Positions 42,036 through 58,451 of a stretch of DNA of 64,000 nucleotides are shown piece by piece. Position numbers and translations under genes: made by a program. The notes under the pieces were generated by a model. The model did no database searches, was not told the origin of the DNA, and worked only from the letters and a program-made list of their open reading frames with translations. Each line of letters opens with the position of its first letter. The stretch's first letter is position 1. The DNA is from Aliiglaciecola sp. CAU 1673 (GTDB lineage: Bacteria > Pseudomonadota > Gammaproteobacteria > Enterobacterales > Alteromonadaceae): NCBI RefSeq assembly GCF_029223185.1, contig NZ_JARHUG010000001.1, forward strand, positions 1-64,000, written 5' to 3'.

Positions 42036-42942
42036 TGCTTAGTGCGGAGGTGAGTGGGGCCTTGCTGAACGACGTGCCATAGACTTCATCGTATATGTCA
42101 ATCACTGCCTGATGACTCGCCGGATGAAACCAGTTCAGATGGGCATCAAGATAGCTTTGTTGTTGGCTTAGCTTGGCAATTTCGCGGTCAAAGATCTCCA
42201 CCAGGGCTTTGCCCGCAGGTGTCTTCGAGCACAGGATATGACCTTCTACCTGCTTGGGTAGCTCTTGCAGGTGCAAAGGGATAATCAGTGAGTGCCCGCC
42301 CAGTTTTTCAGCAAAACTATGGAAAGCGTTGGGGTATTCGAGCACGGCCGCAAGGCGTCCTTCCAGCAACATGTCTACCAGTCCCACCGACATATCGGCG
42401 GCGGTGCGTACCCAAAGCTTTTCTTGCCACTTGGGATCGGCCAAGGCTTGGTCAATCTGACCGCCATAACTGCGTCCGCCGACGATGCCAAATTCCTTTT
42501 CGCCGGCGGCGTTGAGCACATCTTCCAGGGTTAGCTGGTTCTGTTTGTCGCGAATCTGCTGCCAAAGGGCTCTATCGGCACGTACATAGAGTTTGTGTCC
42601 CGGGTAGACAACTTGAGGCAGACGAGTCGCTTGGTAGAGTCTGCGCCTTTCTTCTGTCAGTAACTTACGGCCAGTACAGGCATTGGTTCTGCTGTCGAGA
42701 ATACTCATGGCCCGTTCATTGTTAGCCTGAATATGTTGTACCTCAAGCTGGGGCAAGGCTTGTTGTAAAAGTACTAAAGTCGCTCCGCTCACATCGGGTG
42801 CATGGATATTTTTGTGGGTATGACCCTCTACGTCGGGGCTAATCCAAATCATTTTGGTGGGAGTGGTGCTTTCTGCTTCAGGGCGGCTTTGCACCGAAAA
42901 GCAACACAAGAGAAAAATCAGGGCGGTTAAGTATCTGTCCAT
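42025..42942 (-). CDS. Periplasmic binding-like protein (TIGR02285 type)
   Basis: A 305-residue protein starting at ATG 42942, where a signal peptide begins (MDRYLTALIFLLCCFSVQS) and GGGAAG lies upstream; a longer reading from 43116 would bury it. The fold resembles periplasmic substrate-binding proteins (a C-terminal LDAHLNWFHPASHQAVIDIYDE segment and a SYGGQIDQAL helix), in the group annotated as a hypothetical family related to ABC-transporter binding proteins. Without a transporter nearby its ligand is unknown. The gene is divergent from polB. Confidence 0.8.
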   Translation of the reverse strand: MDRYLTALIFLLCCFSVQSRPEAESTTPTKMIWISPDVEGHTHKNIHAPDVSGATLVLLQQALPQLEVQHIQANNERAMSILDSRTNACTGRKLLTEERRRLYQATRLPQVVYPGHKLYVRADRALWQQIRDKQNQLTLEDVLNAAGEKEFGIVGGRSYGGQIDQALADPKWQEKLWVRTAADMSVGLVDMLLEGRLAAVLEYPNAFHSFAEKLGGHSLIIPLHLQELPKQVEGHILCSKTPAGKALVEIFDREIAKLSQQQSYLDAHLNWFHPASHQAVIDIYDEVYGTSFSKAPLTSALSTSP

Positions 42943-43054
42943 TTGTTTGTCTTCCCTATACCACGGCAACAACATCATCAAAAATAGCCCAGCGTTGCCA
43001 AAGTTCAGCCCGCCTTTGCTAGAATGCGCCGATAATTTTACTGTGGATGACGTG

Positions 43055-45400
43055 TTGAGTACAACCGGAGTTGGCTTCATTTTAACCAGGGCACAACTGG
43101 AGTCGGCAGCGGGCATCAGCCTGGAACTCTGGTTGGCAACGTCACAAGGCCCGTTGCGCCTGCTGACTGAGCCCCAGTCTCTGACCTTCTTTATTGAACA
43201 GCGCGAGCTTCAAAAATTGCCAAGCCTTCTATCCGGGCTCGACTACCGGATAAAACCGCTACCGCTTAAAACCTTCCAGCAAACGCCGGTAGCCGCCTTG
43301 TATTTTTCCAAATCTGCCCATGGGTTTATGGCCAGAGACAGGTTAAAGGATGTGGGCATGGTGCGTTATGAAGACGACATCCGTTTAGCCGACCGCTATC
43401 TGATGGAGCGCTTTGCCTATGGCAGTGTGGCTTATCAGGGGCATCAGATGGCCTATCCTACCTGGCAGCAGATAGATCAGGCCAAAGTGAAGCCAGCCGA
43501 ATACATTCCCACCCTCAGCCTTTTGTCACTGGACATTGAATGCAGTGGTCAGGGCGAGCTTTATTCTATTGGTCTGGCCACAGACAAGCTTCACAAAGTA
43601 CTGATGGTGGGGCCGGCACAAGGGCAAGAAAGCTGGATAAGTTGGGTGGCCGATGAGCGTGCTTTGCTCAAGGCGCTGGTAGAGGAAATCCAGACCATCG
43701 ATCCCGATCTAATTGTCGGTTGGAACCTGGTCAACTTCGATTTTCGCCTGTTGGTGCAGCGTGCCAATGCCTTGGGCATGCCGCTGCATTTTGGTCGCGC
43801 TAACGCGCCGGTACAATGGCGGGACGGTAATGACAGCAATCTTGGGTTTATCAGCATTCCCGGACGGGTCGCCATCGATGGTATCGATGCCCTTAAGACT
43901 GCCACTTACCAGTTTGATAGTTTCAGCCTGGAGCAGGTGGCGCAAAGTCTTTTGGGTAAAGGCAAAGCCATGGAAGAGGGCGCCGATCGTCTGGCCGTGA
44001 TCGAACATGATTTTATTCATAACAAGTTAAAACTGGCCCGCTACAACCTGCAGGATTGCTTGCTGGTGCTGGAGATTTTCGCCCACACCAAGCTGGTAGA
44101 CTTTTTAGTGCTACGCAGTCGCCTGACCGGTCTGGAACTGGATCGTATGGGTGGCTCGGTGGCGGCTTTTACCAATTTGTATCTGCCTAAGCTGCATCGC
44201 GCCGGTTATATCGCGCCTAATTTACCGGCTGATGGTGGCCTGGCCAGCCCCGGTGGCTATGTGATGGACTCCAGGCCGGGCCTTTATCGCAACCTATTGG
44301 TGCTGGATTTTAAAAGCCTGTATCCGTCGATTATTCTCACCTTTAAAATTGATCCGCTGGGGCTGGTGGAAGGTCTGTTGGATCCTGAGCAAGCCATTCC
44401 CGGTTTTCGTGGTGCGAAATTCTCCCGGGAACGGCACTTCTTACCCGATATTATTGCTTCTTTGTGGAAGCAACGGGATGAAGCCAAGCGCCTGAAAGAC
44501 AGCGCCCGCTCTCAGGCCATTAAGATCCTGATGAATTCCTTCTACGGGGTGCTCGGCTCTGGTGGTTGCCGTTTCTACGATACCCGTCTGGCCAGCTCCA
44601 TCACCTTGCGCGGTCATGAGATTATGCAAACCACCGCAGCCTGGATAAAAGAGCAGGGCTATGAGGTTATCTATGGTGATACCGACTCAACCTTTGTGTG
44701 GCTGGGGGATGATAAAGATGAGGTGCAGGCGCAACGCATCGGCAAGGATCTGGCGGCGCTGATCAATCGGCGCTGGCAACACAAGCTGGCTCAAGAGCTG
44801 CAACTAGACAGCCATCTGGAAATTGAATTTGAGACCCACTTTAAGCGCTTTTTAATGCCCACCATTCGTGGCTCGGAGCTTGGCAGCAAGAAGCGCTATG
44901 CCGGCCTTAAAAGTACACCACAAGGCGACAAGCTGGTGTTCAAGGGCCTGGAGTCGGTGCGCTCGGACTGGACCGAGCTGGCCCGGGAATTTCAGCAACA
45001 GTTATATGAAAAGGTATTTGCCGGGGAAGCAGTGGCGGATTACATCCGCAGCGTTATGGATAGCACCCGGCGCGGTGAATACGACCACAAGCTGGTCTAC
45101 CGTAAACGTTTGCGTCGGCCCCTTGGCCAGTATGTGAAAAATGTACCGCCCCATGTGCGCGCGGCCAGGTTGGCCGACGAACAGAATCAAGCGCTTGGCA
45201 AGCCCCTGCAGTATCAACAGCGAGGCTGGATCCGCTACCTGATGACGGTACAAGGGCCCGAGCCGGTGGAGTATCGGCACAGCCCCCTGGACTATGAGCA
45301 CTATATCGACAAACAGCTTCGGCCTGTGGCAGAAGGAATTCTGCCTTTTGTGGATTTGAGCTTTGATGCCTTAGCCAGTGAGCAGATGGGCTTGTTCTAG
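43055..45400 (+). CDS. polB: DNA polymerase II
   Basis: A 781-residue family-B DNA polymerase. I start it at the TTG at 43055: it puts G-V-G-F-I-L-T-R at the N terminus as in E. coli Pol II (A-G-F-I-L-T-R), has GGA 7 nt upstream and gives 781 residues against 783. The longer reading from 42854 crosses the divergent gene's promoter. The 3'-5' exonuclease is seen in LSLDIECSGQGELYSIG and the WNLVNFDFRLL segment; the polymerase motifs DFKSLYPSII and YGDTDSTFVW are intact. In E. coli it works in SOS-induced replication restart; a LexA box was not evident here. Its stop shares CTAG with pxpC's stop. Confidence 0.95.
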   Translation: MSTTGVGFILTRAQLESAAGISLELWLATSQGPLRLLTEPQSLTFFIEQRELQKLPSLLSGLDYRIKPLPLKTFQQTPVAALYFSKSAHGFMARDRLKDVGMVRYEDDIRLADRYLMERFAYGSVAYQGHQMAYPTWQQIDQAKVKPAEYIPTLSLLSLDIECSGQGELYSIGLATDKLHKVLMVGPAQGQESWISWVADERALLKALVEEIQTIDPDLIVGWNLVNFDFRLLVQRANALGMPLHFGRANAPVQWRDGNDSNLGFISIPGRVAIDGIDALKTATYQFDSFSLEQVAQSLLGKGKAMEEGADRLAVIEHDFIHNKLKLARYNLQDCLLVLEIFAHTKLVDFLVLRSRLTGLELDRMGGSVAAFTNLYLPKLHRAGYIAPNLPADGGLASPGGYVMDSRPGLYRNLLVLDFKSLYPSIILTFKIDPLGLVEGLLDPEQAIPGFRGAKFSRERHFLPDIIASLWKQRDEAKRLKDSARSQAIKILMNSFYGVLGSGGCRFYDTRLASSITLRGHEIMQTTAAWIKEQGYEVIYGDTDSTFVWLGDDKDEVQAQRIGKDLAALINRRWQHKLAQELQLDSHLEIEFETHFKRFLMPTIRGSELGSKKRYAGLKSTPQGDKLVFKGLESVRSDWTELAREFQQQLYEKVFAGEAVADYIRSVMDSTRRGEYDHKLVYRKRLRRPLGQYVKNVPPHVRAARLADEQNQALGKPLQYQQRGWIRYLMTVQGPEPVEYRHSPLDYEHYIDKQLRPVAEGILPFVDLSFDALASEQMGLF

Positions 45401-46353
45401 ATCTGGATTAAGGTCTGCTGTAACTGGGCATCTTGGCTGCGATTTTCCAGCAGTAGGGCCTTGGCCATGGCCTGAGGGATGGCTTCAAATTGTACCTCGG
45501 TACCGTGCAGGCACTGCGAAAGTCTTGCACAATCCAGGGACAGCACCGCCCCCAGCTTAGGATAGCCGCCGATGGTCTGCCGATCGTGTAACAGCACGAT
45601 GGGCTGACCATCGCCAGGCAGCTGCACTGCCCCTAAGCAGATCCCTTCCGACCACAGGCTTTTGAAGTCATGGGCAATGGCCTCTCCTTTCAATCTATAG
45701 CCCATACGGTCTGCCTGGCTGCTGATACGGTAGCTGTGGGTAAAGAAAGCCTGTTTCTGTTCCTGGTTAAAGTTCGCATATTGATAGCCTGGCACCAGGC
45801 GCAGCAGAAGTCCTTGTCCATAATGGGGATGATGAGCGGGTGGCAGCATCCAGCCGGCTCGTTGCTTGTCCTCACGGGCGGGCAGCATATCGCCTTTTTT
45901 AAGTTTATTGCCATGTAGTCCGCCAATCCCCTCACGTACTACCGTAGTGGCGCTGCCAAACTGCGGGGCAACGCAAAAACCGCCACTGACAGCCACATAA
46001 CTGCGCACTCCCTGCCTGGTCCGTCCCAGCTTGATGGTATCCCCTTCCTGAACTGAAAAACTTTGCCAAAGCGCTTGAGGCTGGCCATTTACTGACACCT
46101 CGACCACGGCCCCGGTTACGCAAAGCCGGGTCTGAATACGGGCCTGCAGGGTGAGCCCGCCAAGGCTGACCTCCAGCGCCTGGGCATGATCGTTATTTTC
46201 CAAAAGGCGGTTGGCCCAACGATAGGCAAAGGGATCCATGGGGCCACCCTGGGTCAGCCCCAGATGTGCAAAACCGAAGCGCCCCTTATCCACCACAATA
46301 GAAAACAGGCCGCCGTCCAACACTTCAAAGGCATCTGCGAGGATGTCGTTCAT
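45397..46353 (-). CDS. pxpC: 5-oxoprolinase subunit PxpC
   Basis: A 318-residue protein of the carboxyltransferase/allophanate-hydrolase subunit 2 family. Signature features: GRFGFAHLGLTQGGPMDPFAYRWANRLL near the N terminus and YRISSQADRMGYRLKGE and GAVQLPGDGQPIVLLHDRQTIGGYPKLG further on. With PxpB and PxpA it hydrolyses 5-oxoproline to glutamate using ATP. It is third in the pxpABC operon, and its start overlaps the pxpB stop by 4 bp. Convergent with polB. Confidence 0.94.
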   Translation of the reverse strand: MNDILADAFEVLDGGLFSIVVDKGRFGFAHLGLTQGGPMDPFAYRWANRLLENNDHAQALEVSLGGLTLQARIQTRLCVTGAVVEVSVNGQPQALWQSFSVQEGDTIKLGRTRQGVRSYVAVSGGFCVAPQFGSATTVVREGIGGLHGNKLKKGDMLPAREDKQRAGWMLPPAHHPHYGQGLLLRLVPGYQYANFNQEQKQAFFTHSYRISSQADRMGYRLKGEAIAHDFKSLWSEGICLGAVQLPGDGQPIVLLHDRQTIGGYPKLGAVLSLDCARLSQCLHGTEVQFEAIPQAMAKALLLENRSQDAQLQQTLIQI

Positions 46354-47036
46354 AGCTTGCCGCCTAAATCCAGGAAGCTTTGACGGTCAATGGCTTTGAA
46401 GCAGATACGATCGCCCACGCTAAAGGCCATGGGCGGGTCCTGGGCCGGGTCAAACAATGTTGAAGGGCAAAGCCCAATCAGATTCCAACCGCCGGGAGAG
46501 GCATCGGGATAAACCGCGGTTTGGCGATCGGCAATGGCCACCGCGCCTTTTGGCACCTTTTTCCTGGGAGTGGCCAGTCTTGGCATGGCGATACGTTTAT
46601 CCACCTCGCCAAGATAGGCAAAACCTGGAGCAAAACCTATGGCATAAACCCGGTATTCCACTTGTTGGTGCAGGGCAATCACCTCATCGATGGAGAGCTT
46701 GGCCTGCCGGGCCAGACTGCCTAAGTCAGCGCCGCTTTCCTCACTGTAATACACCGGCAATTCGATGAGCTTGCCTGCTGTCAGGTTTGCTTGCTCGGTT
46801 TGGGGCAGACACAGCATCAGAGCATCACGGATTTGCCGGGGCTCAATGTTAAGGGGGTCAAACAGAATCAAAAGACTGTGGTAGCTGGGCACCAACTCCA
46901 GCAGATCCTCACCAAGAGCGCGGTATAGCTTGGGTATCAATGCAGCCAGGCGTGCAGTAATGCTGTCGCTGGGATTATCTGCCAGATAAAGAATGAGCGC
47001 TCCTTCGCCGGCGCTTTGGAGCCTGGGATAACTCAT
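46350..47036 (-). CDS. pxpB: 5-oxoprolinase subunit PxpB
   Basis: A 228-residue protein of the allophanate hydrolase subunit 1 family (KipI-like). Motifs: YHSLLILFDP, VEYRVYAIGFAPGFAYLGEVD with the conserved G-F-x-P-G-F, RLATPRKKVPKGAVAIADRQTAVYP (in pieces) and SPGGWNLIGLCPSTLFDP. Works in the PxpABC complex. Four-base overlaps with both neighbours. Confidence 0.94.
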   Translation of the reverse strand: MSYPRLQSAGEGALILYLADNPSDSITARLAALIPKLYRALGEDLLELVPSYHSLLILFDPLNIEPRQIRDALMLCLPQTEQANLTAGKLIELPVYYSEESGADLGSLARQAKLSIDEVIALHQQVEYRVYAIGFAPGFAYLGEVDKRIAMPRLATPRKKVPKGAVAIADRQTAVYPDASPGGWNLIGLCPSTLFDPAQDPPMAFSVGDRICFKAIDRQSFLDLGGKL

Positions 47037-47761
47037 GCGTCTAACAAATCGCGAATATGTTTGACCATGGCCACGGCCTGTGGGTTATCGCCATGTACGC
47101 ATAGGCTGTCGGCCTCAAGCTTCAGCGCTTTGCCGCTGAGGGTGATCACCTTCCCTTCTTTAACCAGGGAGGTGACCTGCGCCAGGGTTTGCTCGGTATC
47201 TAACACCGCATCGGCTTGGTTGCGTGGTAGCAGACGGCCATCAGCCTGGTAGCGCCTGTCGGCGAAGGCCTCAAACAATAACTCAATGCCAAAGGGGCCG
47301 GCTTCCCGGCGGTATTGCTGTGCCTGGCTGTCGGCTTGCAACATCAGTTTTAATGACCGGGGGTAGCTGCGAATGGCCTCGTAAATAGTGCGCCGGGTTT
47401 CCAGGTTATTCATCATATCGTGGTACATGGCGCCATGGGGTTTGACATAGGTGATAGCTATTCCCTGCACTTTGGCCATGGCATCGAGTGCACCGATTTG
47501 GTAGTGCAGCAGATTAATCAACTCCTGCGAAGTGCAATGCAAGGTACGACGACCAAAGCCAATCAGATCCGGATAGGCGGGGTGAGCGCCTACTTCTACC
47601 TGATACTCGGCGGCCAGCTGCAAGGTGCGATGCATTACATCGGGATCGCCGGCATGAAAGCCGCAGGCGATATTGGCCTGGTGAATATGGGGCATCACTT
47701 CCTCATCCAGCCCCATTTTCCAGTTGCCGTAACTCTCGCCTAGATCGCAATTGAGCTTCAT
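47033..47761 (-). CDS. pxpA: 5-oxoprolinase subunit PxpA
   Basis: A 242-residue LamB/YcsF-family protein. I start at ATG 47761 (MKLNCDLGESYG), as in E. coli PxpA, with GAGGT 5 nt upstream; a GTG at 47776 is less likely. Motifs: DLGESYG, ANIACGFHAGDPDVMHRTL, VKPHGAMYHDM. First gene of pxpABC, which salvages the 5-oxoproline formed from glutamine and glutathione cycles. Confidence 0.95.
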   Translation of the reverse strand: MKLNCDLGESYGNWKMGLDEEVMPHIHQANIACGFHAGDPDVMHRTLQLAAEYQVEVGAHPAYPDLIGFGRRTLHCTSQELINLLHYQIGALDAMAKVQGIAITYVKPHGAMYHDMMNNLETRRTIYEAIRSYPRSLKLMLQADSQAQQYRREAGPFGIELLFEAFADRRYQADGRLLPRNQADAVLDTEQTLAQVTSLVKEGKVITLSGKALKLEADSLCVHGDNPQAVAMVKHIRDLLDA

Positions 47762-47799
47762 CTGTACCTCTGTCACGTGCTTTCTTCCAGCATAACAAA

Positions 47800-49629
47800 T
47801 TAGAGCGATGGCGGCAGGGTCACCGGTAACTGTCCCTGAGGCTTGGATTTGCCTGCCAGCGCCCGGGCAAGAGCATCAAAGGTCGGGCCTTGTATTTGCG
47901 GTGTCTTGCTGTTGCTCTGTAGTTCGTGGGTGTTATACGCATAGCTCGCCAATACCACGTCAGCCCGATGACCTAATTGGGCTATATCGTAAGGTGCGCG
48001 CAGGCTGACCAGAATGCTCTGCTTACCCTCTGATTGGGCTTGTAGCAGTAATCTGGGAAGCAAATGCCGGCGCTCTTCTTCATTGACCACAGCGCCGGAT
48101 AAGTCCCAATCCCAGGGGCCCCATTCGCTGCTGCTTTGTGCCGGGTTGATATTGGCTAACAGTAAGGCATCCGCCTTTTTAATCGCCGCGAAGGCTTTGC
48201 TTTCTTCAAAGCTACGAAGGCTGCTGCAACTGGTGGTAAGGGCAGGCATTTCCCGTGCAAGGGCCTGGGTGAGGGCCAGACATTTGCCCCAATCAGGTAG
48301 CACTAAATGCAGACTTTTCACCTTCTTCGCCAAGGCCGCGCTTTGGCCTTTAACCAGGGTCAGCGAGGCATCGGCCAATTGGGCTTCCAAGGTCTTCAGG
48401 GCTGGGTCGGTAAGTGCTGCATTTGCCTTGGCCAACGCCTGGCTCACCGGTGTACCCAGGTTATCTGAAAATGCCATGTTGGTTTTGGCTTCGCGAATAC
48501 GTTTGGCCGATGCACCGATGGCCCTGGCGTCCAGTTCGCCACTTTTAACCGCCGCTTCAAGGGCATCCAGGAGTATGGACAGGCGTGTCATCGCCTTGGG
48601 GCTATTGAGTAGTAGTGGCATCAGCGCGATATCGGCACCGGCCTTGAAGGTTTCAATAACGGCCTGCTCCGGCTCAAAAAAGTGGGCAACGCCTGCCATA
48701 TCCAGGGCATCGGTGACAATCAGGCCCTGGTAGCCTAATTCGTCGCGCAATAGATCGGTTAAAATGGCTTTGGACAAGGTGGCGGGTCGCAGCATGCTCT
48801 CACCACGCTTATTGACGATTTTACTGCTATCCAAGGCCGGATACTGGATATGGGCGGTCATCAGCATCTTTACTTCACCGGCGCTAATCAGGCGCTGGAA
48901 GGGCAAAAGATCGGCCCTTTCAATGGTGGCCTTGTCATGATCCACCCGGGGCAGGCCGGTATGGCTGTCTACTTCCGTATCACCATGGCCGGGGAAATGT
49001 TTGACCGCGCCCATGACTCCTTGTTGTTGCATCGCCTTTAGTTGGGCCAGACCCAATTCGGCGACCATCACCGGATCTGCCGAAAACGCGCGCACATTAA
49101 TCACCGGATTGTCCGGGTTGACGTTAACATCCAGCGTCGGCGCAAAATTCAGGTTAAAACCCAGGGCCTTTAACTGTTGGGCCAGAGCATGACCGGTTTG
49201 CTCTGCGAACTGCATACCGTGCCTGGCATAAGTGGCGCCTATGGCCATATTGCCGGAAAACGCCGGTGTTAGTTGTCTGGGGATGCGGGCGACCCGGCCG
49301 CCTTCCTGATCGATAGCCAAAAACAAGGGCACACCAGCCTTGGATTTGGCATTAGCCTGCTGCAAGGCTCGATTCAGGTTGATGATTTGCTCAAGGGACT
49401 GCAGGTTTTCGCCGAACAGGATCACGCCGCCAACCCCTTCTTTGGCCAGTAACTTAGCGGCCTCTTTTGGCAATTCAGTCATCGGCGTACGACAAGGTTT
49501 TTTACTGTCCTGACAAAAGTAACGAAAGTCGATGATTAATTTTTGCGCCAGATCCTGACGCAGGCTGTTGGCCTGGGCTGGGTTGGTGCACAGAGCAAGG
49601 ATAAAAAACAACAGGGTAGTGGCGCGCAT
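47800..49629 (-). CDS. nagZ: Exported beta-N-acetylhexosaminidase, GH3 family
   Basis: A 609-residue glycoside hydrolase with a signal peptide (residues 1-20). The bacterial NagZ signature KHFPGHGDTEVDSH is at 210-223 and the catalytic nucleophile Asp307 is in VTDALDM. Residues about 390-609 form a second alpha/beta domain, as in the two-domain secreted NagZ of Bacillus subtilis, unlike the single-domain cytosolic E. coli NagZ. It removes GlcNAc from muropeptide or disaccharide ends outside the cytoplasm. It is divergent from a transporter/kinase/MurQ/NamZ operon, so the five genes probably act together. Confidence 0.9.
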   Translation of the reverse strand: MRATTLLFFILALCTNPAQANSLRQDLAQKLIIDFRYFCQDSKKPCRTPMTELPKEAAKLLAKEGVGGVILFGENLQSLEQIINLNRALQQANAKSKAGVPLFLAIDQEGGRVARIPRQLTPAFSGNMAIGATYARHGMQFAEQTGHALAQQLKALGFNLNFAPTLDVNVNPDNPVINVRAFSADPVMVAELGLAQLKAMQQQGVMGAVKHFPGHGDTEVDSHTGLPRVDHDKATIERADLLPFQRLISAGEVKMLMTAHIQYPALDSSKIVNKRGESMLRPATLSKAILTDLLRDELGYQGLIVTDALDMAGVAHFFEPEQAVIETFKAGADIALMPLLLNSPKAMTRLSILLDALEAAVKSGELDARAIGASAKRIREAKTNMAFSDNLGTPVSQALAKANAALTDPALKTLEAQLADASLTLVKGQSAALAKKVKSLHLVLPDWGKCLALTQALAREMPALTTSCSSLRSFEESKAFAAIKKADALLLANINPAQSSSEWGPWDWDLSGAVVNEEERRHLLPRLLLQAQSEGKQSILVSLRAPYDIAQLGHRADVVLASYAYNTHELQSNSKTPQIQGPTFDALARALAGKSKPQGQLPVTLPPSL

Positions 49630-49722
49630 AGAGATTATTTATTGGTATAGGCGGGAAACCGACATTAGATAAGATAGTATGCCAGGAAGCTTGGCCATAC
49701 AACGCGGGACTGTAGTTAAAGC

Positions 49723-51288
49723 ATGGAGAGTCAATTTGCCTGGCTGGATTGGACGGTATTTGCCGCCTATGCCCTGTTGATGCTGGGTAGCGGCTGGTAC
49801 TTTAGTCGCCGCCAGGCGGCGTCCAGCCGGGAATATTTTCTGGCCGGTAACCAGATGCCGGTGTGGATGGTGGCCATTTCGGTGTTGGCTACCTCCCAAT
49901 CGGCGGCCACATTCTTGGGCGGTCCGGAGCAGGGCTATCGCAGCGATTTAAGCTATCTGGCCACCAATATCGGTGCCATGATTGCCGCACTGCTGGTGGC
50001 TTACTGGCTAATTCCCAAGTTTTATGCACTGCGGGTGACCACGGTGTATGAGTTGCTGGAGCAACGTTTTGGCGCCGGCGCCAAATCCCAGGCCAGTTTG
50101 CTCTATCTGTTTGGGCGGGTGTTTGCCAGCGGTGCGCGCCTGTTTATGGCTGCACTGGCGCTGGCCATGATCCTGTTTAACGATATTCACGCTTCCTCGG
50201 TACTCAGCGCCCTATTGGTACTGACTCTGGTTGGCCTGCTGTATTCGCTGGTGGGTGGCATTCGCTCGGTGATTTATTCCGATGTGATCCACTGCGCTCT
50301 ATATGTAGGCGCGGCGCTATTGGTGCTGGGCTATCTGTTTATGCAAATGCCGCTGGAATGGTCGCAGATGCTATCGGCTTTGGAACATCCGCTGGACAGG
50401 GAATTATCCAAATTTACCCTGATCGATACGCGGCTGGATTTTGGTCCCGGTGGGGTGTTTAGCCTGTGGTCGGCGCTGACCGGTTTTGTGCTATTGAATA
50501 TCGCCGCCTTTGGGTTAGATCAGGATATGACCCAGCGCATGCTCAGTTGCAAAGATGCCAGGCAAGGTGCCAAGGCACTACTGTGGTCAGTGGTATGGGT
50601 GATCCCGGTGATGTTGGTGTTTATCCTGATTGGCTTGTTGCTGTATCTCTTTTACCAGCGTCCGGATTTAATGGGCAGCGCCAGCGGCCTTGAAACACCC
50701 AGCTTCGAGGGCGAGCCGATTGGCGTGTTTATGTACTATGTGCTTAATGAGTTGCCCGCGGGCCTTAAAGGCTTGGTGGCGGTGGGGGTCATCGCGGCGG
50801 CCTTATCTACTCTCAATTCCGGGTTGAATGCCATGTCATCGGTGTTGGTAGAGGATTTGTACCGGCCCTGGCGGGCGCGCCGCGGGGCTTTGCCGGAAAA
50901 ACACTATGTGCGCGCCGGACAATGGGGCATGGTAATAGCCGCCTTAGCGCTTTGCGCCATGGCGGCATTGTGTTTTTATTGGCAGCGCTACTCAGATATG
51001 CCGCTGTTGGCCTTTGCCTTAAGTGTGATGGTGTTTTCCTACAGCGGCCTGCTGGGCGTATACTTCACCGCTTTGTTTACCCATCGCGGCAGTCCGGCAT
51101 CTGTGGCGGCGGCATTGGCCACAGGATTTTTGTTTACCCTGGCTATGCAGCCCTATTTGATGGCGTGGTATTTACCCGCGCAATGGCAATTTGAATTGGG
51201 TTTTAGTTGGCAACTTTGCCTGGGGGCATTGGTCGCCACAATGGTGTGTCTGATGGGGAAAAGCCCCCAATCCGAGAGACGTATTTGA
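49723..51288 (+). CDS. Sodium:solute symporter, probable amino-sugar importer
   Basis: A 521-residue SSS-family protein with about 13 transmembrane helices. Family signatures: SSREYFLAGNQMPVWMVAIS, LATSQSAATFLGGPEQGY, and VGLLYSLVGGIRSVIYSDVIH. It heads the operon with a sugar kinase, MurQ and NamZ, so its substrate is probably N-acetylmuramic acid or GlcNAc released outside; this is context inference. No PTS component is present. The promoter is in the 93-bp gap to the divergent nagZ. Confidence 0.92.
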   Translation: MESQFAWLDWTVFAAYALLMLGSGWYFSRRQAASSREYFLAGNQMPVWMVAISVLATSQSAATFLGGPEQGYRSDLSYLATNIGAMIAALLVAYWLIPKFYALRVTTVYELLEQRFGAGAKSQASLLYLFGRVFASGARLFMAALALAMILFNDIHASSVLSALLVLTLVGLLYSLVGGIRSVIYSDVIHCALYVGAALLVLGYLFMQMPLEWSQMLSALEHPLDRELSKFTLIDTRLDFGPGGVFSLWSALTGFVLLNIAAFGLDQDMTQRMLSCKDARQGAKALLWSVVWVIPVMLVFILIGLLLYLFYQRPDLMGSASGLETPSFEGEPIGVFMYYVLNELPAGLKGLVAVGVIAAALSTLNSGLNAMSSVLVEDLYRPWRARRGALPEKHYVRAGQWGMVIAALALCAMAALCFYWQRYSDMPLLAFALSVMVFSYSGLLGVYFTALFTHRGSPASVAAALATGFLFTLAMQPYLMAWYLPAQWQFELGFSWQLCLGALVATMVCLMGKSPQSERRI

Positions 51289-52160
51289 TGAGTTGGCAAT
51301 ATTTTTTAGGTATTGACGGTGGCGCCAGTAAAACGGTAGGGCGTCTGCATTGTGTTCAAAGCGGTGAACGGTTTGAAGGCCGCGCCGAGCCGTCCTCCCT
51401 GACCCTGGGAGTAGAAAAAGCGGTAGCAGAGATAGTCAAGCTGGCGCAAGACCTGTGCAAGCAAGCCCATTGCAGCACTCAGGATATTTATTTGGTATGT
51501 GGTTTGGCCGGTGCCGGTGAAGCGGCGCTAAATCAACAGGCAACAAAAGCGTTGTCGGCCTATTTCGGCGAGGTGGAAGTGCTGACCGATGCCAAAACCT
51601 CGGCCTATGGCGCCAATCTGGGCGAGCCAGTGGCAGTGGTAGCGCTGGGCACCGGCTCGGTGGCCATGACATTGGACAAGCAAGGCCGGGAGAGACAGAT
51701 TGGCGGCTGGGGATTATTGGTAGGCGATGAAGGTGGCGGTGCTCGTCTGGGGGTCAATGCCGTCAGTGCCTTGCTTTGGGAATTGGATATCCATGCAAAG
51801 CCTGTGACCGACACTGGCCGCTATTTGCAATCCCAACTGGGACAGGATGCTGATGCCATTTTGGGTTGGTTACGCAGGGCAACACCGACTTCCTACGCGG
51901 CGCTGGTGCCTGCCATCCTCGAAAAAATGGAGTGGTGTCCTTTGGCGCAAAGCCTGTTTCAGCAGCATATGCAGGCGGTGGTGCGTTTAATCAAAGCCAC
52001 CGGCGACAACTTGCCCGTGGTGCTAACCGGGGGACTTGCCGATATCAGCCTAAAGCACCTTAATGAGCCCCTGAAATCCCGTGTGATTACTGCTCGTGGT
52101 ACCTCGCTGGATGGTGCTTGTCTGTTGGCCGAGCGTGCTATTGCCTTAGCGGAGGCCTGA
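51288..52160 (+). CDS. BadF/BadG-type sugar kinase (MurNAc/GlcNAc kinase-like)
   Basis: A 290-residue ASKHA kinase. The start at 51288 is set by TGATG overlap with the transporter stop. The first phosphate loop is [15 protein letters not shown], and the second phosphate site [10 protein letters not shown] and [17 protein letters not shown] are typical of N-acetylglucosamine kinases and of MurK, which phosphorylates N-acetylmuramic acid at C6 in bacteria lacking a PTS. Placed directly before murQ, whose substrate is MurNAc-6-phosphate, so a MurNAc kinase role fits best. Confidence 0.88.
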
Positions 52161-52161
52161 A

Positions 52162-53082
52162 ATGTCCAATAATCTGCTGACTGAGCTTGCATCCCTGCAA
52201 TCGGAGGGGCGCAACTCCCGCACCATGGATTTGGATCTGTTGCCCACGTCGCAAATGCTGGAGCGTATCAACGAGCAGGACCAAAGCGTGGCGCTGGCCG
52301 TGCAGGCGGTGCTGCCGCAAATCGCCCAGGCAGTGGATTGGATTGCTGATGCTTTTGCATCAGGCGGGCGGCTGATTTATCAGGGGGCCGGGACCAGCGG
52401 CCGTCTTGGAGTGCTGGATGCTGTGGAGTGCCCACCTACCTTCGGCGTGTCGCCGGAATTGGTCGTGGGACTGCTTGCCGGTGGCGAAAAAGCCATGTTT
52501 AAGGCGGTAGAAGGGGCCGAAGATAATCAGGAGTTGGGCAAGCAGGACCTACAGGCCATTAGTGTAAGCCCAAAAGATGTGCTGGTGGGTATTGCCGCCA
52601 GCGGCCGCACCCCTTATGTGCTGGGCGGCCTGGCTTATGCCAGGGAACTGGGGGTTAAAACCGTTGGACTGTCCTGTAATCCCGGCTCTAAGGTTGCACA
52701 GGCGGCAGAACTGGCTATTTCCGTAGCGGTGGGGCCTGAGGCCCTGACCGGCTCCACCAGAATGAAGTCAGGTACTGCACAGAAAATGGTGCTGAATATG
52801 CTTTCCACCGGCGCCATGATCCGAAGCGGCAAAAGCTATGAAAATCTGATGGTGGATGTGGCTGCCACCAATGAAAAGCTTAAGGCCAGAGCGGTTCGAA
52901 TTGTGATGCAGGCCACGGCCTGTAATGAACAATCGGCCAGGAAGGCGCTGGAACAGGCTGAAAATCAAGCCAAGCTAGCCATCTTGTTGGTGTTAACCAA
53001 CTTAGACAGAGAAGCGGGTAAGGCTTTGCTGGCCAAGCATCAGGGCTTTTTACGCAAAGCGGTGCAAGCATGGCGAGGTTAA
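52162..53082 (+). CDS. murQ: N-acetylmuramic acid 6-phosphate etherase
   Basis: A 306-residue lyase that splits MurNAc-6-phosphate to GlcNAc-6-phosphate and D-lactate. The family signature [23 protein letters not shown] (read in two parts) and [19 protein letters not shown] are present with a SIS fold. GGAGG lies 6 nt before the ATG. The D-lactate released could feed the D-lactate dehydrogenase-like enzyme at 55.6 kb. Overlaps namZ. Confidence 0.97.
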
Positions 53083-54260
53083 TGCCAACAGTATTTCTTC
53101 TGATATTCTGCGGGTTCTTGTTTGGTTTGCCTGCTTTGGCTGGCTGTTCGGCCGATTCGACACCCGTTTTCAGGCTCGGTGCTGAACAAAGCGAGCGCTA
53201 TTTGCCGCAGCTTAAAGACAAACGCATCGGTCTGATTGTTAATCAGACCGCCAGGGTGGGTGAGCAGCATCTGCTGGATTTTCTGTTAGAAAGTGGCGTT
53301 AAGGTGGCCAGGGTCTTTGCTCCGGAGCATGGCTTTCGTGGCGAAGCCGATGCCGGTGCCAGCATTGACGGCGGTGTGGACTCCCGCACCGGTACGCCTA
53401 TTTACTCCATCTATGGTGAGCGCAAACAGCCAGCGCCCGACGCCTTAAACGACTTGGATATCCTGGTTTTCGATATTCAGGATGTGGGCGTACGCTATTA
53501 CACCTACATCAGCTCCATGCATCTGATGATGGAAGCGGCCGCTGATGCCGGCTTACCCTTTATGGTGCTGGACAGGCCCAATCCGAATGGCGCTTATGTG
53601 GATGGCCCTGTGCTTGAACCTGCTTTTCGTTCCTTTGTGGGGATGCATGAGATTCCGCTGCTGCACGGTATGACGGTGGGAGAGTTGGCGCAAATGATAG
53701 TCGGTGAGGGCTGGCTGAAAAGTGAAAAGCCCCTCTCTCTTAGCGTTATTCCCATGCAGGGCTATCAGCGAGAGATGTCCTATGACTTGCCCATCAAACC
53801 CAGTCCGAATTTGCCCAATGCCCAGGCGGTAGCCCTTTATCCTTCGCTGGGCTTTTTCGAAGCCACCCCTATCAGCATTGGTCGGGGTACTGACTTTCCG
53901 TTCCAGGTCATAGGCCACGATACAATCCAGCCACCAGGGGCCGTTTTCAGCTTTACCCCTGTCTCCAAACCCGGCGCCAGTAAACCCAAACTACAAGATA
54001 CGCCGCTGTTAGGGGAGGATTTACGTCAATATCCGGCAAATGGCTTGGACTTAAGCCATCTTTTGCGTTGGTATCAGGTCTTTGCCAAAAAGGGCGAAGC
54101 CTTTTTCGACGCCCCCGCCTTTATGGATAAGCTGGCCGGCACCGATAAATTGCGCCTGGCCATCGAAGCCGGTCAAAGCGAAGCCGAAATCCGTGCCAGC
54201 TGGCAGCCAAAACTAGACGGCTTTAATGTAAAACGCCAAGCTTATCTGCTTTATCCTTGA
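53070..54260 (+). CDS. namZ: NamZ-like exo-N-acetylmuramidase (DUF1343, GH171), lipoprotein
   Basis: A 396-residue exported protein. The N-terminal signal has a lipobox LAGC (Cys26), so it is probably a lipoprotein. An ATG at 53082 overlapping the murQ stop is an alternative start. DUF1343 signatures: [47 protein letters not shown] and [13 protein letters not shown]. Characterised members (NamZ of B. subtilis) remove MurNAc from the non-reducing end of peptidoglycan glycans. It ends the salvage operon. Confidence 0.92.
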
Positions 54261-54427
54261 CCACCCTATTTCTGGCGGCAAGTGGAATTAGTGCTCATGA
54301 GGATTCCTTTTATACACCATGAATGCCAGTCAGATACGAACTAGCCTTATCCTCATTGCCGTGTTGATAGGATGAAAATAAGGCATACCATTAACCTTTC
54401 TGACGATGGCAGTCAGATTATTAGTTT
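54261..54427. other. Left edge of AT-rich island
   Basis: About 167 bp after namZ in which base composition shifts clearly to AT. It holds no recognisable gene. GCCAGTCAGAT-like and GGCAGTCAGAT-like stretches occur near 54325 and 54410 but do not form clear boundary repeats. Confidence 0.4.
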
Positions 54428-54631
54428 TTAATCAGATTTTTTTGGCAGGCCTAAGTAAATCAATGCAAAAATAACATTTGCAAAAGGTATTAAGCCAAGG
54501 ATTATCGCTGTTCTTGCTGAGTAATTTTTCGATTTAGCCATCACAACGTTAATTAATATGCAAGCTATTGAATAAATAAATACGGATATCCAAAGGGGAG
54601 AGATGGTTCCGTCATGTAACATATCTAGCAT
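54428..54631 (-). CDS. Small two-helix membrane protein of unknown function
   Basis: A 67-residue protein with two hydrophobic segments (residues about 12-32 and 44-62) and a short basic loop between (KSKNYSART). The base composition is AT-rich, unlike the flanking genes. It starts 12 bp from the stop of the next gene upstream on the same strand, so the two are likely one operon. No family recognised. Confidence 0.6.
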   Translation of the reverse strand: MLDMLHDGTISPLWISVFIYSIACILINVVMAKSKNYSARTAIILGLIPFANVIFALIYLGLPKKSD

Positions 54632-54642
54632 GATTATCCTTC

Positions 54643-55440
54643 TTAATGCTCTAAAATAACGACATAGTATGTTCTGGCGCCGGCGCCAACACTTACATTG
54701 ACAACCCTAACCCCATACATAGAAGCCCTATTTATATAGTCATTCATTGAATCAACAGAATTAAAGGTATATTCACCAGAGAAGGATTCTCCAGCATCGG
54801 AAATCATATTGCCGTCAACATCACTTGAACTGTTTTCTTTATAATCGAGTCGCAGCTTAGCCTGGTTTGCATGTGGTGCAGTCATTATTAATGTGCTGCC
54901 ATCTTCAAATTCGAAAATATACTCTAAGCCATTGATGGGATTGTAAAAATGTCCAGCAAGTACAACCCCGAGTGTGGAAAGCCAATAACTCACCGGATGA
55001 TTGTCATGAAACCAGTCATCTAGTCTTTCTCTATTGCTTGTATTTCTTGCAATATCCCATGCACTAGTAAATCCACTTTCGCCCGGTACAAAGACCTTCT
55101 TAAGCGCAAAGACTTCGTTTCTGGAAGCATCGTCTACTTTAGCTTGGAGATCGCTCGGGACAGAGACTGGTGAAGAAGTGGAAACAACATCAATTTCACC
55201 GTTATTATTTAAACTATACTGAACCGATATTCTCCATCCTGATATTTGAGCTGTCTTAAAATTTGCAACGAATATATCATCAGTGTACCCATTGCTTGTT
55301 ACATTTCCTTCGGCTGCACTTCTGGCCACTGAATGCATTTGAAACTGATTGATGCAAGTGTTGCAAGTTAAATATTGTTCGGCGCTTGCTTTAATAGAAA
55401 GAGCTAGAGTTGTAATAAAGACTAAAACCAGAAATCTCAT
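54643..55440 (-). CDS. Exported protein of unknown function in AT-rich island
   Basis: A 265-residue protein with a signal peptide (cleavage near SIKASAEQ, residue 20). After the signal there is a CNTC pair (Cys26, Cys29), and later an aromatic beta-rich part with DGSTLIMTAPHANQ and YKENSSSDVDGNM. There are no catalytic motifs I recognise. Codon use is AT-rich relative to all neighbours, which suggests recent acquisition. Possibly secreted by type II secretion or held by another surface system, but nothing shows this. Confidence 0.65.
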   Translation of the reverse strand: MRFLVLVFITTLALSIKASAEQYLTCNTCINQFQMHSVARSAAEGNVTSNGYTDDIFVANFKTAQISGWRISVQYSLNNNGEIDVVSTSSPVSVPSDLQAKVDDASRNEVFALKKVFVPGESGFTSAWDIARNTSNRERLDDWFHDNHPVSYWLSTLGVVLAGHFYNPINGLEYIFEFEDGSTLIMTAPHANQAKLRLDYKENSSSDVDGNMISDAGESFSGEYTFNSVDSMNDYINRASMYGVRVVNVSVGAGARTYYVVILEH

Positions 55441-55631
55441 CTATCTTCCGTTGATCTTGACTTTTTAAACCTAATCTACATTTATCCATTTCACTGGTAA
55501 TATATCTTGCAAAAAAAAGTTGTCAACTTGCTTTTCGGTGCAAGCTATATTACTGCCGTAATTGTGACCCTTCTTGCCGCCTCTTCATATTGCTATTAAC
55601 CTAGTTCGAAGGTATTCACTCGGCTTACCCC

Positions 55632-58451
55632 ATGGATTTCGACGGATTTTGCCGCGCACTGCGCCAGTTTTTGCCTGAAAAGGCGATCATCGATGACCTT
55701 TCCCTGCGGTTGGCGCACGCCGGGGATGCCAGCTTTTATCATCTGGTACCCAAGCTTCTGGTACGTATCGATGATATCGAGCAGATGCAGCGGCTGCTCT
55801 CCTGTTCCGGTGAATTCCGGGTGCCGGTCACCTTCAGGGCGGCGGGTACCAGTTTGTCCGGTCAGGCGGTAACCGATTCGGTACTGGTGTTACTGACATC
55901 TAATTGGCGACAGGCCGAGGTACTGGAAAAGGGCGCAAAAATCCGTTTGCAGCCTGGTGTTATTGGTGCCCGCGCCAATGAGATGTTAAAGCCCTTCGGC
56001 TATAAACTGGGGCCGGATCCGGCCTCTATTGATAGCTGCAAGATTGGCGGGATAGCTGCTAATAATGCTTCGGGTATGTGCTGTGGGGTTAAGCATAACA
56101 GTTACCATACGGTGGAGCAGATGCGTCTTCTGTTGGCCGACGGGACGCTGGTGGATACCGCATCACCCGATTGCCTGGAAGTGCTGACCCGCCGACATCC
56201 CAAACTGTTGGCCGGGCTCTCCAGATTGTCCCGGGTATTGCAGGCGACCCCCTCGCTGGCCGACAAGGTGCGGCACAAATATCGCCTTAAAAACACCACC
56301 GGCTATGGCATCAATGCGCTATTGGACTTTGATTGCCCGATTGAGCAAATCAAGCACCTGATGATTGGCTCGGAGGGGACTTTAGGTTTTATCGCCGATA
56401 TCACTTACCAATCGGTGCCCCTTGCCCCTTATCAAACCAGCGGCCTTTTCGTTTTTGATCATATCGAACATTGTTGCGAGCTGGTGTCCGCGCTTCGCCA
56501 GCTGGATGTACAGGCGGTGGAGTTGATGGATGCCAGCGCTTTGGCTGCGGTTGCGCAAAAGCAGGGAATGCCAAAGTGGCAGGGGGAGCTGCCAGAGGAA
56601 GCTGCCGCGTTACTGATTCAATTGGGTGCGTCAGATAATGAGACACTGGCCAGGCAACAAGTCGAAGTACAGGCGTTATTGGAAAATAGCCGCCAGAGAC
56701 TGATATGCGCCGCGCCTTTTTGTCAGGGTGAGCAAGAACAGTTGCTTTGGGCCATTCGCAAAGGGCTGTTTCCTGCCGTGGGCGCCAACCGCGAACCTGG
56801 TACGACTGTGATCATCGAAGATGTGGCGGTACCTATCGAATACCTGGCTAAAGCGGTAGAACGACTGCATGGCCTGTTTGCACAATATGACTACCACCGC
56901 GCCATAATTTTTGGACATGCCCTCGAGGGGAATCTGCACTTCGTTTTTACCCAGGCATTTGATAATGACGAGCAGGTTGGCCGCTACGATGCCATGATGC
57001 AGGCGGTAGCGGAGGAGATCCTTGCGTTTGGTGGTGCGCTGAAAGCAGAGCACGGCACTGGCCGCAATATGGCGCCTTTCGTGCGCCAGGAGTGGGGCGA
57101 CGAGCTTTATGGCATTATGCGCGAACTGAAACGCCTGTTTGACCCCAGGGGCACGCTCAACCCTGGCGTAATTATTAATGACGATCCGAAAGCACATCTT
57201 AAACACCTGAAGGCCATACCTGCGGTAGATGCGCAAATTGACGAATGTATCGAATGCGGGTTTTGTGAGCCGGTTTGTCCTTCCAAAGAACTCACCCTGA
57301 CGCCCAGGCAGCGTATTGCCCTATGGCGGCAGTTGTCACAAAAAAATGGTCTTGATCCTAAAAGCCGCCAGCAGGTGGGAGAAGATTATCAGTACCTTGG
57401 CATCGACAGTTGCGCGGCCACCGGGCTATGCGCCAGTCGTTGTCCCGTAGGTATTGATACCGGGGCCTTTATTAAGTCTCTGAGAGGCCGGCGCCAAGCC
57501 TCCCCACTAAGTCGCTTTAGCGCTACACATTGGAAAATGACCGGACAACTGGCCCGCTTTGCCCTTAAAAGCGCCGCCATTAGCCGCGATCTGCTCGGTG
57601 AAGCTGTCACCGAAAAGATTTCCAATGGCCTTTACGACATCAGTGTCAAAGGGGTACCCAAATGGAATCCAGCCTTACCAGGACCGGCGGAAAATGTGGT
57701 TGAGCTTGCCGGCAGGGGGCAACCGGTGATTTATTTCCCCAGTTGCGCCAATCGTTGGTTTGGTGTGCAACCTGGGGCGCAAGATGAAAGGCCTGTATTT
57801 CAGGTGATCGCTTCGGTGCTGAAAAAGGCCGGTTATCACATGTTGTTAGTCGATGATGCCGACGTCCTGTGTTGTGGCCAACCCTGGGAGAGCCAGGGGC
57901 AGACAACTTTGGCCAATAGCAAACTTGAGGAAGCCCGGGACAAGTTGATAGCCATGGCGGATGATAAAAGCGTGCCGGTGCTTATCGATGCTGCCAGTTG
58001 CGCCTTGCAACTCAGACGAGCATCAACGGGTCTGGAAATCCATGATCCCGCCAGCTTTATCCGCGATAAAGTGCTTCCCAAGCTGCATATCCGCCCGCTT
58101 TCCGAGCCTGTTATGCTGCATATCAGTTGCTCGGCAAAACGACAGGGTTCTGAGCAGGCGCTGCTTGAAGTAGCCAAAGCCTGCAGTACAAAAGTGATTG
58201 TGCCTAAGGATATTCACTGTTGTGGATTTGCCGGCAATAAGGGCCTGACCTTACCGGAGCTCAATCAAAGTGCCCTGACCGGGCTTAAGGCCCAAGTGCC
58301 CGGTGATTGTCATCAGGGTATTTCTGACAATCGCACCTGCGAAATTGGCCTGAGCCAACATAGCGGCGTTCCCTACCAGTCGGTTTTCTACCTCCTCGAT
58401 AAGGTCAGTCACAGTCTTGGCTATACTGGTGATAAAGCTCAAGAAAAGTAA
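55632..58451 (+). CDS. FAD-linked, Fe-S D-lactate dehydrogenase-like oxidoreductase
   Basis: A 939-residue protein that joins an FAD-binding domain (PCMH type, with VTFRAAGTSLSGQAV, GPDPASIDSCKIGGIAANNASG), an FAD-oxidase C-terminal domain, two [4Fe-4S] motifs (CIECGFCEPVCP and CAATGLCASRCP) and two CCG domains (CCGQPWESQG and CCGFAGNKG). This architecture matches the respiratory D-lactate dehydrogenase Dld-II of Shewanella and related D-2-hydroxyacid dehydrogenases. It passes electrons to the quinone pool. Just beyond the MurQ cluster, which releases D-lactate. No clear ribosome-binding site. Confidence 0.9.
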   Translation: MDFDGFCRALRQFLPEKAIIDDLSLRLAHAGDASFYHLVPKLLVRIDDIEQMQRLLSCSGEFRVPVTFRAAGTSLSGQAVTDSVLVLLTSNWRQAEVLEKGAKIRLQPGVIGARANEMLKPFGYKLGPDPASIDSCKIGGIAANNASGMCCGVKHNSYHTVEQMRLLLADGTLVDTASPDCLEVLTRRHPKLLAGLSRLSRVLQATPSLADKVRHKYRLKNTTGYGINALLDFDCPIEQIKHLMIGSEGTLGFIADITYQSVPLAPYQTSGLFVFDHIEHCCELVSALRQLDVQAVELMDASALAAVAQKQGMPKWQGELPEEAAALLIQLGASDNETLARQQVEVQALLENSRQRLICAAPFCQGEQEQLLWAIRKGLFPAVGANREPGTTVIIEDVAVPIEYLAKAVERLHGLFAQYDYHRAIIFGHALEGNLHFVFTQAFDNDEQVGRYDAMMQAVAEEILAFGGALKAEHGTGRNMAPFVRQEWGDELYGIMRELKRLFDPRGTLNPGVIINDDPKAHLKHLKAIPAVDAQIDECIECGFCEPVCPSKELTLTPRQRIALWRQLSQKNGLDPKSRQQVGEDYQYLGIDSCAATGLCASRCPVGIDTGAFIKSLRGRRQASPLSRFSATHWKMTGQLARFALKSAAISRDLLGEAVTEKISNGLYDISVKGVPKWNPALPGPAENVVELAGRGQPVIYFPSCANRWFGVQPGAQDERPVFQVIASVLKKAGYHMLLVDDADVLCCGQPWESQGQTTLANSKLEEARDKLIAMADDKSVPVLIDAASCALQLRRASTGLEIHDPASFIRDKVLPKLHIRPLSEPVMLHISCSAKRQGSEQALLEVAKACSTKVIVPKDIHCCGFAGNKGLTLPELNQSALTGLKAQVPGDCHQGISDNRTCEIGLSQHSGVPYQSVFYLLDKVSHSLGYTGDKAQEK

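Follow-up and report, generated by a model that had tools for sequence, protein, structure and literature searches.

The stretch analysed here, which we call the window, comprises 64,000 bp (positions 1 to 64,000 of contig NZ_JARHUG010000001.1) of the genome of Aliiglaciecola sp. CAU 1673 (4.26 Mb in 36 contigs). Between positions 47800 and 54260 it carries five intact genes that are predicted to function in the salvage of the peptidoglycan sugars N-acetylmuramic acid (MurNAc) and N-acetylglucosamine (GlcNAc). These are nagZ (47800..49629, minus strand), encoding a two-domain GH3 β-N-acetylglucosaminidase, and, on the plus strand, genes for a symporter of the sodium/solute symporter (SSS) family (49723..51288), a BadF/BcrAD-family sugar kinase (51288..52160), the MurNAc-6-phosphate etherase MurQ (52162..53082) and a member of the exo-β-N-acetylmuramidase family, NamZ (53070..54260). 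The 93 bp from which nagZ and the symporter gene diverge (49630..49722) lack the GAAT-N5-ATTC palindrome that four congeners have there. An earlier note on this DNA had placed the two-domain NagZ, the SSS transporter, the BadF-type kinase, MurQ and a lipoprotein NamZ in one divergent locus, and the coordinates and family scans confirm this. The ATG of the kinase gene overlaps the stop codon of the symporter gene by one base, one base pair separates the kinase gene from murQ, and murQ overlaps namZ by 13 bp; this tight spacing, taken together with the gene families, fits a single operon. SSS transporter, BadF-type kinase and MurQ are thus encoded in one putative operon, the arrangement that defines a MurTKQ-type system.

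Three of the products are enzymes placed by their family matches. MurQ scores 435 bits on the TIGR00274 equivalog (cut-off 302). NamZ is assigned to its family by both of its domains, NamZ_N (266 bits; cut-off 26.9) and NamZ_C (92 bits; cut-off 25), its best solved match is 4jja (E 2e-102), and activity on terminal MurNAc is predicted. The GH3 N-terminal domain of NagZ was found by family scan, and residues 21–606 align with the two-domain Bacillus subtilis NagZ/YbbD (3bmx, E 7e-97). The protein carries KHFPGHGDTEVDSH plus an Asp that is Asn in 3lk6, and the motif KH.PGHG.....SH, which is present in 105 of 106 open reading frames (ORFs) called as orthologs. Signal peptides were called by eye: the N-terminus of NagZ is Sec-signal-like without a lipobox, and that of NamZ contains the lipobox-like LAGC at residues 23–26.

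The symporter possesses a PF00474 domain (E 2e-32; 113 bits vs a cut-off of 22.8), falls 1.3 bits short of the TIGR00813 cut-off, and is a predicted Na+/MurNAc importer with a MurT-like role. Among solved structures it is matched best by that of the sialic acid symporter SiaT (5nv9, E 2e-38). S362 and T363 align with the Na2 serines of SiaT and, like the residues aligned with SiaT Ser60/Thr63, which are described as binding the carboxylate (PMC5931594), are invariant in 16 of 16 orthologs as counted on the printed alignment. A carboxylate-binding arginine by analogy with SiaT was not established: Arg135 of SiaT, the binder of the substrate carboxylate, aligns with Ala135, which is flanked by the invariant Arg132 and Arg139.

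The kinase contains a PF01869 domain (E 1e-22). By sequence the nearest solved structures are a putative NagK (1zc6, E 9e-29) followed by the MurK of Clostridium acetobutylicum (8zo3, E 3e-16). An AlphaFold model of the protein (predicted local distance difference test score, pLDDT, 96.2) matches 1zc6 with a Z-score of 34.0, 8zo3 with 28.4 and the Tannerella MurK with MurNAc (8ow9) with 21.2, the corresponding identities being 30%, 22% and ~20%. The PF01869 domain together with a modelled fold like that of solved MurK proteins suggests that the enzyme would act as a MurNAc 6-kinase. On the NagK_SO3507 equivalog model (NF046058; cut-off 370) it scores 90.7 bits; two other kinases of the genome, encoded on contigs C11 (in a GlcNAc operon) and C36, score 374 and 298 bits, respectively. 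A bulky Glu or His at the lactyl site is described as blocking, the site being Ser133-Pro134-Leu135 in the MurK of Tannerella forsythia (PMC10465942); the putatively equivalent pocket of the window kinase is without bulky Glu or His, which is compatible with MurNAc as substrate but does not discriminate.

The grouping of these genes recurs widely. NamZ was found in 66 of 147 sampled genomes of the family, representing 25 of 52 genera, and neighbours were called around each of the 67 matches outside the source genome (the family loci). A scan of named genomes with an SSS alignment yielded a second set, the best 80 of 459 relatives (the named loci), from Bowmanella, Lacimicrobium, Alkalimonas, Rheinheimera, Arsukibacterium, Alteromonas, Paraglaciecola, Colwellia, Thalassotalea, Pseudidiomarina, Pseudoalteromonas and others, including Vibrio hepatarius and V. 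proteolyticus. The two sets share genomes, and the counts that follow come from a purpose-made ORF caller whose starts were unverified individually, with some loci cut by contig ends. At 78 of the 80 named loci the gene after the symporter gene on the same strand encodes the kinase (50) or MurQ, fusions included (28); of the remaining two, one has namZ in this position and the other none of these. Similarly, murQ (fusions included) directly precedes namZ on the same strand at 59 of 67 family loci, among which we counted 46 with an SSS gene, 49 with nagZ, 30 with a separate kinase (two of them NagK-like, L085 at 31% and L103 at 27%), seven with a kinase-MurQ fusion and 37 with an RpiR regulator. 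Genes for alanine racemase, an epimerase-like protein, a peptidase and NhaC also stand near the core in relatives. A loose lipobox pattern matches 24 of 57 nagZ and 37 of 66 namZ ORFs of the named loci. Since the grouping recurs across many genera, chance assembly is ruled out. At strict limits an ortholog of the symporter itself was found in 22 of 295 genomes of the order (E 1e-130) and, class-wide, in the source genome alone among 369 (E 1e-110); only the best 4–5 candidates per genome were scored in these searches, so absence is not proof.

Eleven loci (seven of 67 family and four of 80 named loci: L062, L096, L098, L101, L109, L110, L112, L129, L132, L147 and L150) encode the kinase fused to MurQ. 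The first seven listed are 615–701 residues long, and the Pfam domains were confirmed for one of them, L101. In a tree of 73 kinases a 100/100 branch splits 52 locus kinases and all 11 fused ones from 10 NagK-like proteins; the separate kinases had been labelled in part according to their identity with the window kinase (34% limit), which counts against our interpretation, so the independent evidence from the tree is only the place of the fused kinases among the locus kinases. The tool gave a long-branch warning, only four of eight congener NagK loci were kept in the input (slices with a stop were dropped), and parsimony requires two changes for the fusions. The fusions with MurQ are the strongest single clue that a kinase of the window type feeds MurQ. 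As natural joinings of kinase and etherase they are evidence of function, and the clade that holds them offers a candidate sequence marker for distinguishing MurNAc from GlcNAc kinases.

The remainder of the pathway is encoded elsewhere in the genome. Genes for NagK, NagB-II, NagA and NagP lie together with one for an HGSNAT-like acyltransferase on contig C11 (L120, 5001-25000), where NagP, at 549 bits, stays short of its model's cut-off (625). The protein encoded ahead of this GlcNAc operon we take to be a GH20-type hexosaminidase. Contig C23 (L208, 60001-80000) carries close together homologs of nhaC, of the gene for an Amidase_2/β-lactamase protein (821 residues) and of the alanine racemase gene, a group of gene families that stand near the core in other genomes. 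The cluster had been called "complete" in the earlier note, a description that does not hold given the genes on C11 and C23 and the lack of a regulator at the locus. AnmK and a NagZ of cytosolic type are also encoded elsewhere in the genome. As a separate observation, the gene for the NagK-like kinase on C36 (L121, 22000-41999; 298 bits) lies beside that of an Asparaginase_2 protein, and further along is a gene for an SSS-like transporter (25% identity); this group is possibly another glycan operon.

We consider it likely, and hold this with good confidence, that the locus is a peptidoglycan-sugar (MurNAc/GlcNAc) salvage operon in which the symporter imports free MurNAc and the kinase makes MurNAc-6-phosphate. 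NagZ and the lipoprotein NamZ, both with export signals, would act beyond the inner membrane, releasing GlcNAc and MurNAc from the termini of glycan fragments. The symporter would bring in free MurNAc with sodium, the kinase would convert it to MurNAc-6-phosphate, and MurQ would split off D-lactate; NagA and NagB-II would then turn the resulting GlcNAc-6-phosphate into fructose-6-phosphate. Free GlcNAc would be handled by NagP and NagK. The external cutting, uptake, phosphorylation and lactyl-ether cleavage foreseen at the outset agree with the gene families, gene order, fusions and kinase tree; the substrates of the kinase and symporter, the sites of action and growth on MurNAc are predictions from these.

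Several findings besides the identity-based tree labels weigh against this interpretation. The presence of AnmK and a cytosolic-type NagZ means that MurQ may serve ordinary recycling, the kinase is nearest to a putative NagK rather than to the Tannerella MurK and may therefore act on GlcNAc or on both sugars, and the symporter has alanine at the position of SiaT Arg135. Strict motifs are only partly kept: DRPNPNG of NamZ in 91 of 133 orthologs, three MurQ patterns in 78, 39 and 109 of 138, and the NagZ nucleophile pattern in 28 of 106, the window NagZ itself failing it. In addition, in 21 of 21 genomes with a kinase-less locus (drawn from 32 such loci among the 67; murQ is at the locus in 20, the SSS gene in 15) the best whole-genome hits to the kinase reached only 110–163 bits, compared to 427 for the window kinase itself and 158 and 117 for the NagK-like kinases of its own genome. 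The search of these 21 genomes did not bear out the idea that such relatives keep the kinase elsewhere; in them its role must fall to NagK or a different enzyme, unless MurQ obtains its substrate by another route.

Three other explanations have to be set against the salvage of foreign MurNAc. The operon might take back MurNAc and GlcNAc that the cell's own wall releases into the periplasm. The N-termini of NagZ and NamZ would direct both proteins to the periplasm or the outer membrane, AnmK and the cytosolic-type NagZ are classical recycling enzymes, and from 42854 to 58451 no called gene was seen to encode a TonB receptor or lytic enzyme. This classical route may, however, already cover own-wall fragments, the patchy occurrence of the locus, judged by NamZ in the family, fits an optional food source better, and alanine racemase, epimerase-like, peptidase and NhaC genes accompany it in relatives; self-recycling is, in our estimation, unlikely, though it deserves serious attention. 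That the kinase chiefly phosphorylates GlcNAc, or accepts both sugars, and that the symporter carries GlcNAc or another amino sugar, appears distinctly improbable: the kinase is found fused to MurQ at 11 loci, the fused kinases fall within the locus-kinase clade, the symporter gene is almost always followed by the gene for the kinase or MurQ, and NagK and NagP of the same genome are encoded in a separate GlcNAc operon. What speaks for a GlcNAc kinase is the nearest solved structure, the existence of relatives without the window-type kinase, and the pocket motif (IGGWG in the window kinase, SGGWG in 8zo3, AGGWG in 1zc6), whose GGWG, being common to the putative NagK and the C. acetobutylicum MurK, does not discriminate. 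Finally, SSS substrates are unreadable from sequence and a cytosolic-type NagZ is available for further cutting inside the cell, which leaves room for import of a disaccharide or muropeptide. We give this little credence, as both exo-glycosidases of the locus have export signals and by family release monosaccharides, and as family precedent (PMC5790795, PMC10465942) has such kinases and MurQ working on MurNAc as a monosaccharide.

A salvage operon importing free MurNAc has close parallels. The murT-murK-murQ genes of Tannerella forsythia are likewise reported to combine a sodium symporter, a PF01869 kinase and MurQ in a phosphotransferase system (PTS)-independent catabolism of MurNAc (PMC5790795, PMC7670621, PMC10465942). 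The earlier note had presented the sodium symporter as a contrast to Tannerella; MurT is itself described as belonging to the sodium symporter superfamily (PMC5790795, which elsewhere labels it a major facilitator), so this contrast falls away. The likeness to MurT is drawn from its published description. Unlike the Tannerella operon, the window locus also holds nagZ and namZ, its kinase is nearer to a bacterial putative NagK than to the Tannerella MurK, the distribution is gammaproteobacterial, and kinase-MurQ fusions occur in relatives; regulation also differs, by RpiR in the relatives of the window locus and by GppX control, as described in PMC5388701, in Tannerella. The MurK of C. acetobutylicum, similar in structure and dissimilar in sequence to the window kinase, is stated to act on both MurNAc and GlcNAc (PMC10465942). 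The Shewanella-type GlcNAc operon, recognized by the NagK_SO3507, NagB_SO3506 and NagP_SO3503 models, is the one on C11 that would supply NagA and NagB-II after MurQ, and its NagK lies outside the clade of the window locus kinase. With B. subtilis the window locus shares the two-domain NagZ, NamZ and MurQ. In that organism the three genes lie in one cluster and the transporter is the PTS protein MurP; the window locus has an SSS transporter and an ATP-dependent kinase in place of MurP, and is without a regulator. We read the locus as functioning in the manner of the Tannerella MurT/MurK/MurQ set with a Bacillus-type NagZ/NamZ added. Bacteria of a microbial mat have been predicted to use MurNAc from the presence of MurQ and a complete GlcNAc pathway (PMC5507952); among the matches listed in our literature search, none of the titles and opening lines of abstracts dealt with an Alteromonadales MurNAc operon.

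In four sampled congeners (L053, L055-L057) the gene for an RpiR regulator adjoins namZ, and GAATTAATTATTC lies upstream of the symporter gene. The palindrome GAAT-N5-ATTC occurs between -250 bp and +60 bp of the SSS ORF at 37 of 80 named loci, compared to a mean of 0.57 and a maximum of 3 in 100 rounds of shuffling, which keep composition but not relatedness. It accompanies 33 of 44 RpiR proteins of at least 50% identity, none of nine more distant ones, and four of the 27 loci without RpiR; at the 46 family loci with an SSS gene it is found in 19 of 33 with RpiR and one of 13 without. Its density outside called ORFs is ~48 times that inside them, an excess of which part must be due to AT-richness. 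The motif was noticed in the same loci in which it was counted and the genomes are related, so the link between RpiR and GAAT-N5-ATTC is a hypothesis, and a well-supported one; this predicted operator is probably where an RpiR (MurR-like) repressor acts to control the operon in the relatives. The source species seems to have lost both. No GAAT-N5-ATTC is present between 45300 and 55700 (one copy lies at 11638 of the window, and another in the L122 piece around the cytosolic nagZ of the same genome), no RpiR/MurR-type regulator is encoded at the locus, and the genome's one HTH_6 (RpiR-type) protein is HexR. A tblastn search of the window for remnants of RpiR, D-glutamate cyclase and HGSNAT with queries from four relatives gave nothing significant, the best match (E 0.19) lying inside murQ.

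In a broader proposal, to which we assign slightly less than an even chance, these genes represent a regulated Alteromonadales-type peptidoglycan-feeding system that did not turn up in the literature searched, consisting of a NagK-related MurNAc kinase (in some cases fused to MurQ), a dedicated Na+/MurNAc symporter, NagZ, NamZ, satellite genes for the stem peptide and a MurR-like RpiR acting on GAAT-N5-ATTC, of which the source species has lost repressor and operator together. If true, this loss would leave its MurNAc operon unregulated or rewired, and the loss of the predicted operator is testable. The type of pathway is known already from another phylum; its wide spread among relatives, the kinase-etherase fusions and the predicted regulator and operator add to its interest. 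Peptidoglycan makes up a large share of dead bacterial matter, and the users of its muramic acid and their genes are poorly known; for a widespread group of gammaproteobacteria, the locus defines a specific set of genes whose role in MurNAc use can be tested.

Around the operon, positions 44000-57000 contain no Rfam match that reaches the gathering threshold, and consensus promoter and terminator scans revealed no excess over shuffled sequence (2 vs 4.3 and 6 vs 6.8, respectively). The position occupied by the RpiR gene in congeners is taken by a gene for a 265-residue protein (54643..55440, minus strand) with no Pfam or NCBIfam match at E 0.001. Downstream of nagZ by 23 bp, and on the same minus strand, family scans identified the genes of the three 5-oxoprolinase subunits, pxpA (47033..47776), pxpB (46350..47036) and pxpC (45397..46353). 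They are possibly co-transcribed with nagZ, with a putative link to the pathway. A role of pxpABC as a D-glutamate salvage arm was set aside: the D-Glu_cyclase family (PF07286) is without a match in the source genome, which makes the link weak here. In some relatives a D-glutamate cyclase gene, found at seven of 67 family and six of 80 named loci, adjoins pxpA close to nagZ, hinting at D-glutamate salvage.

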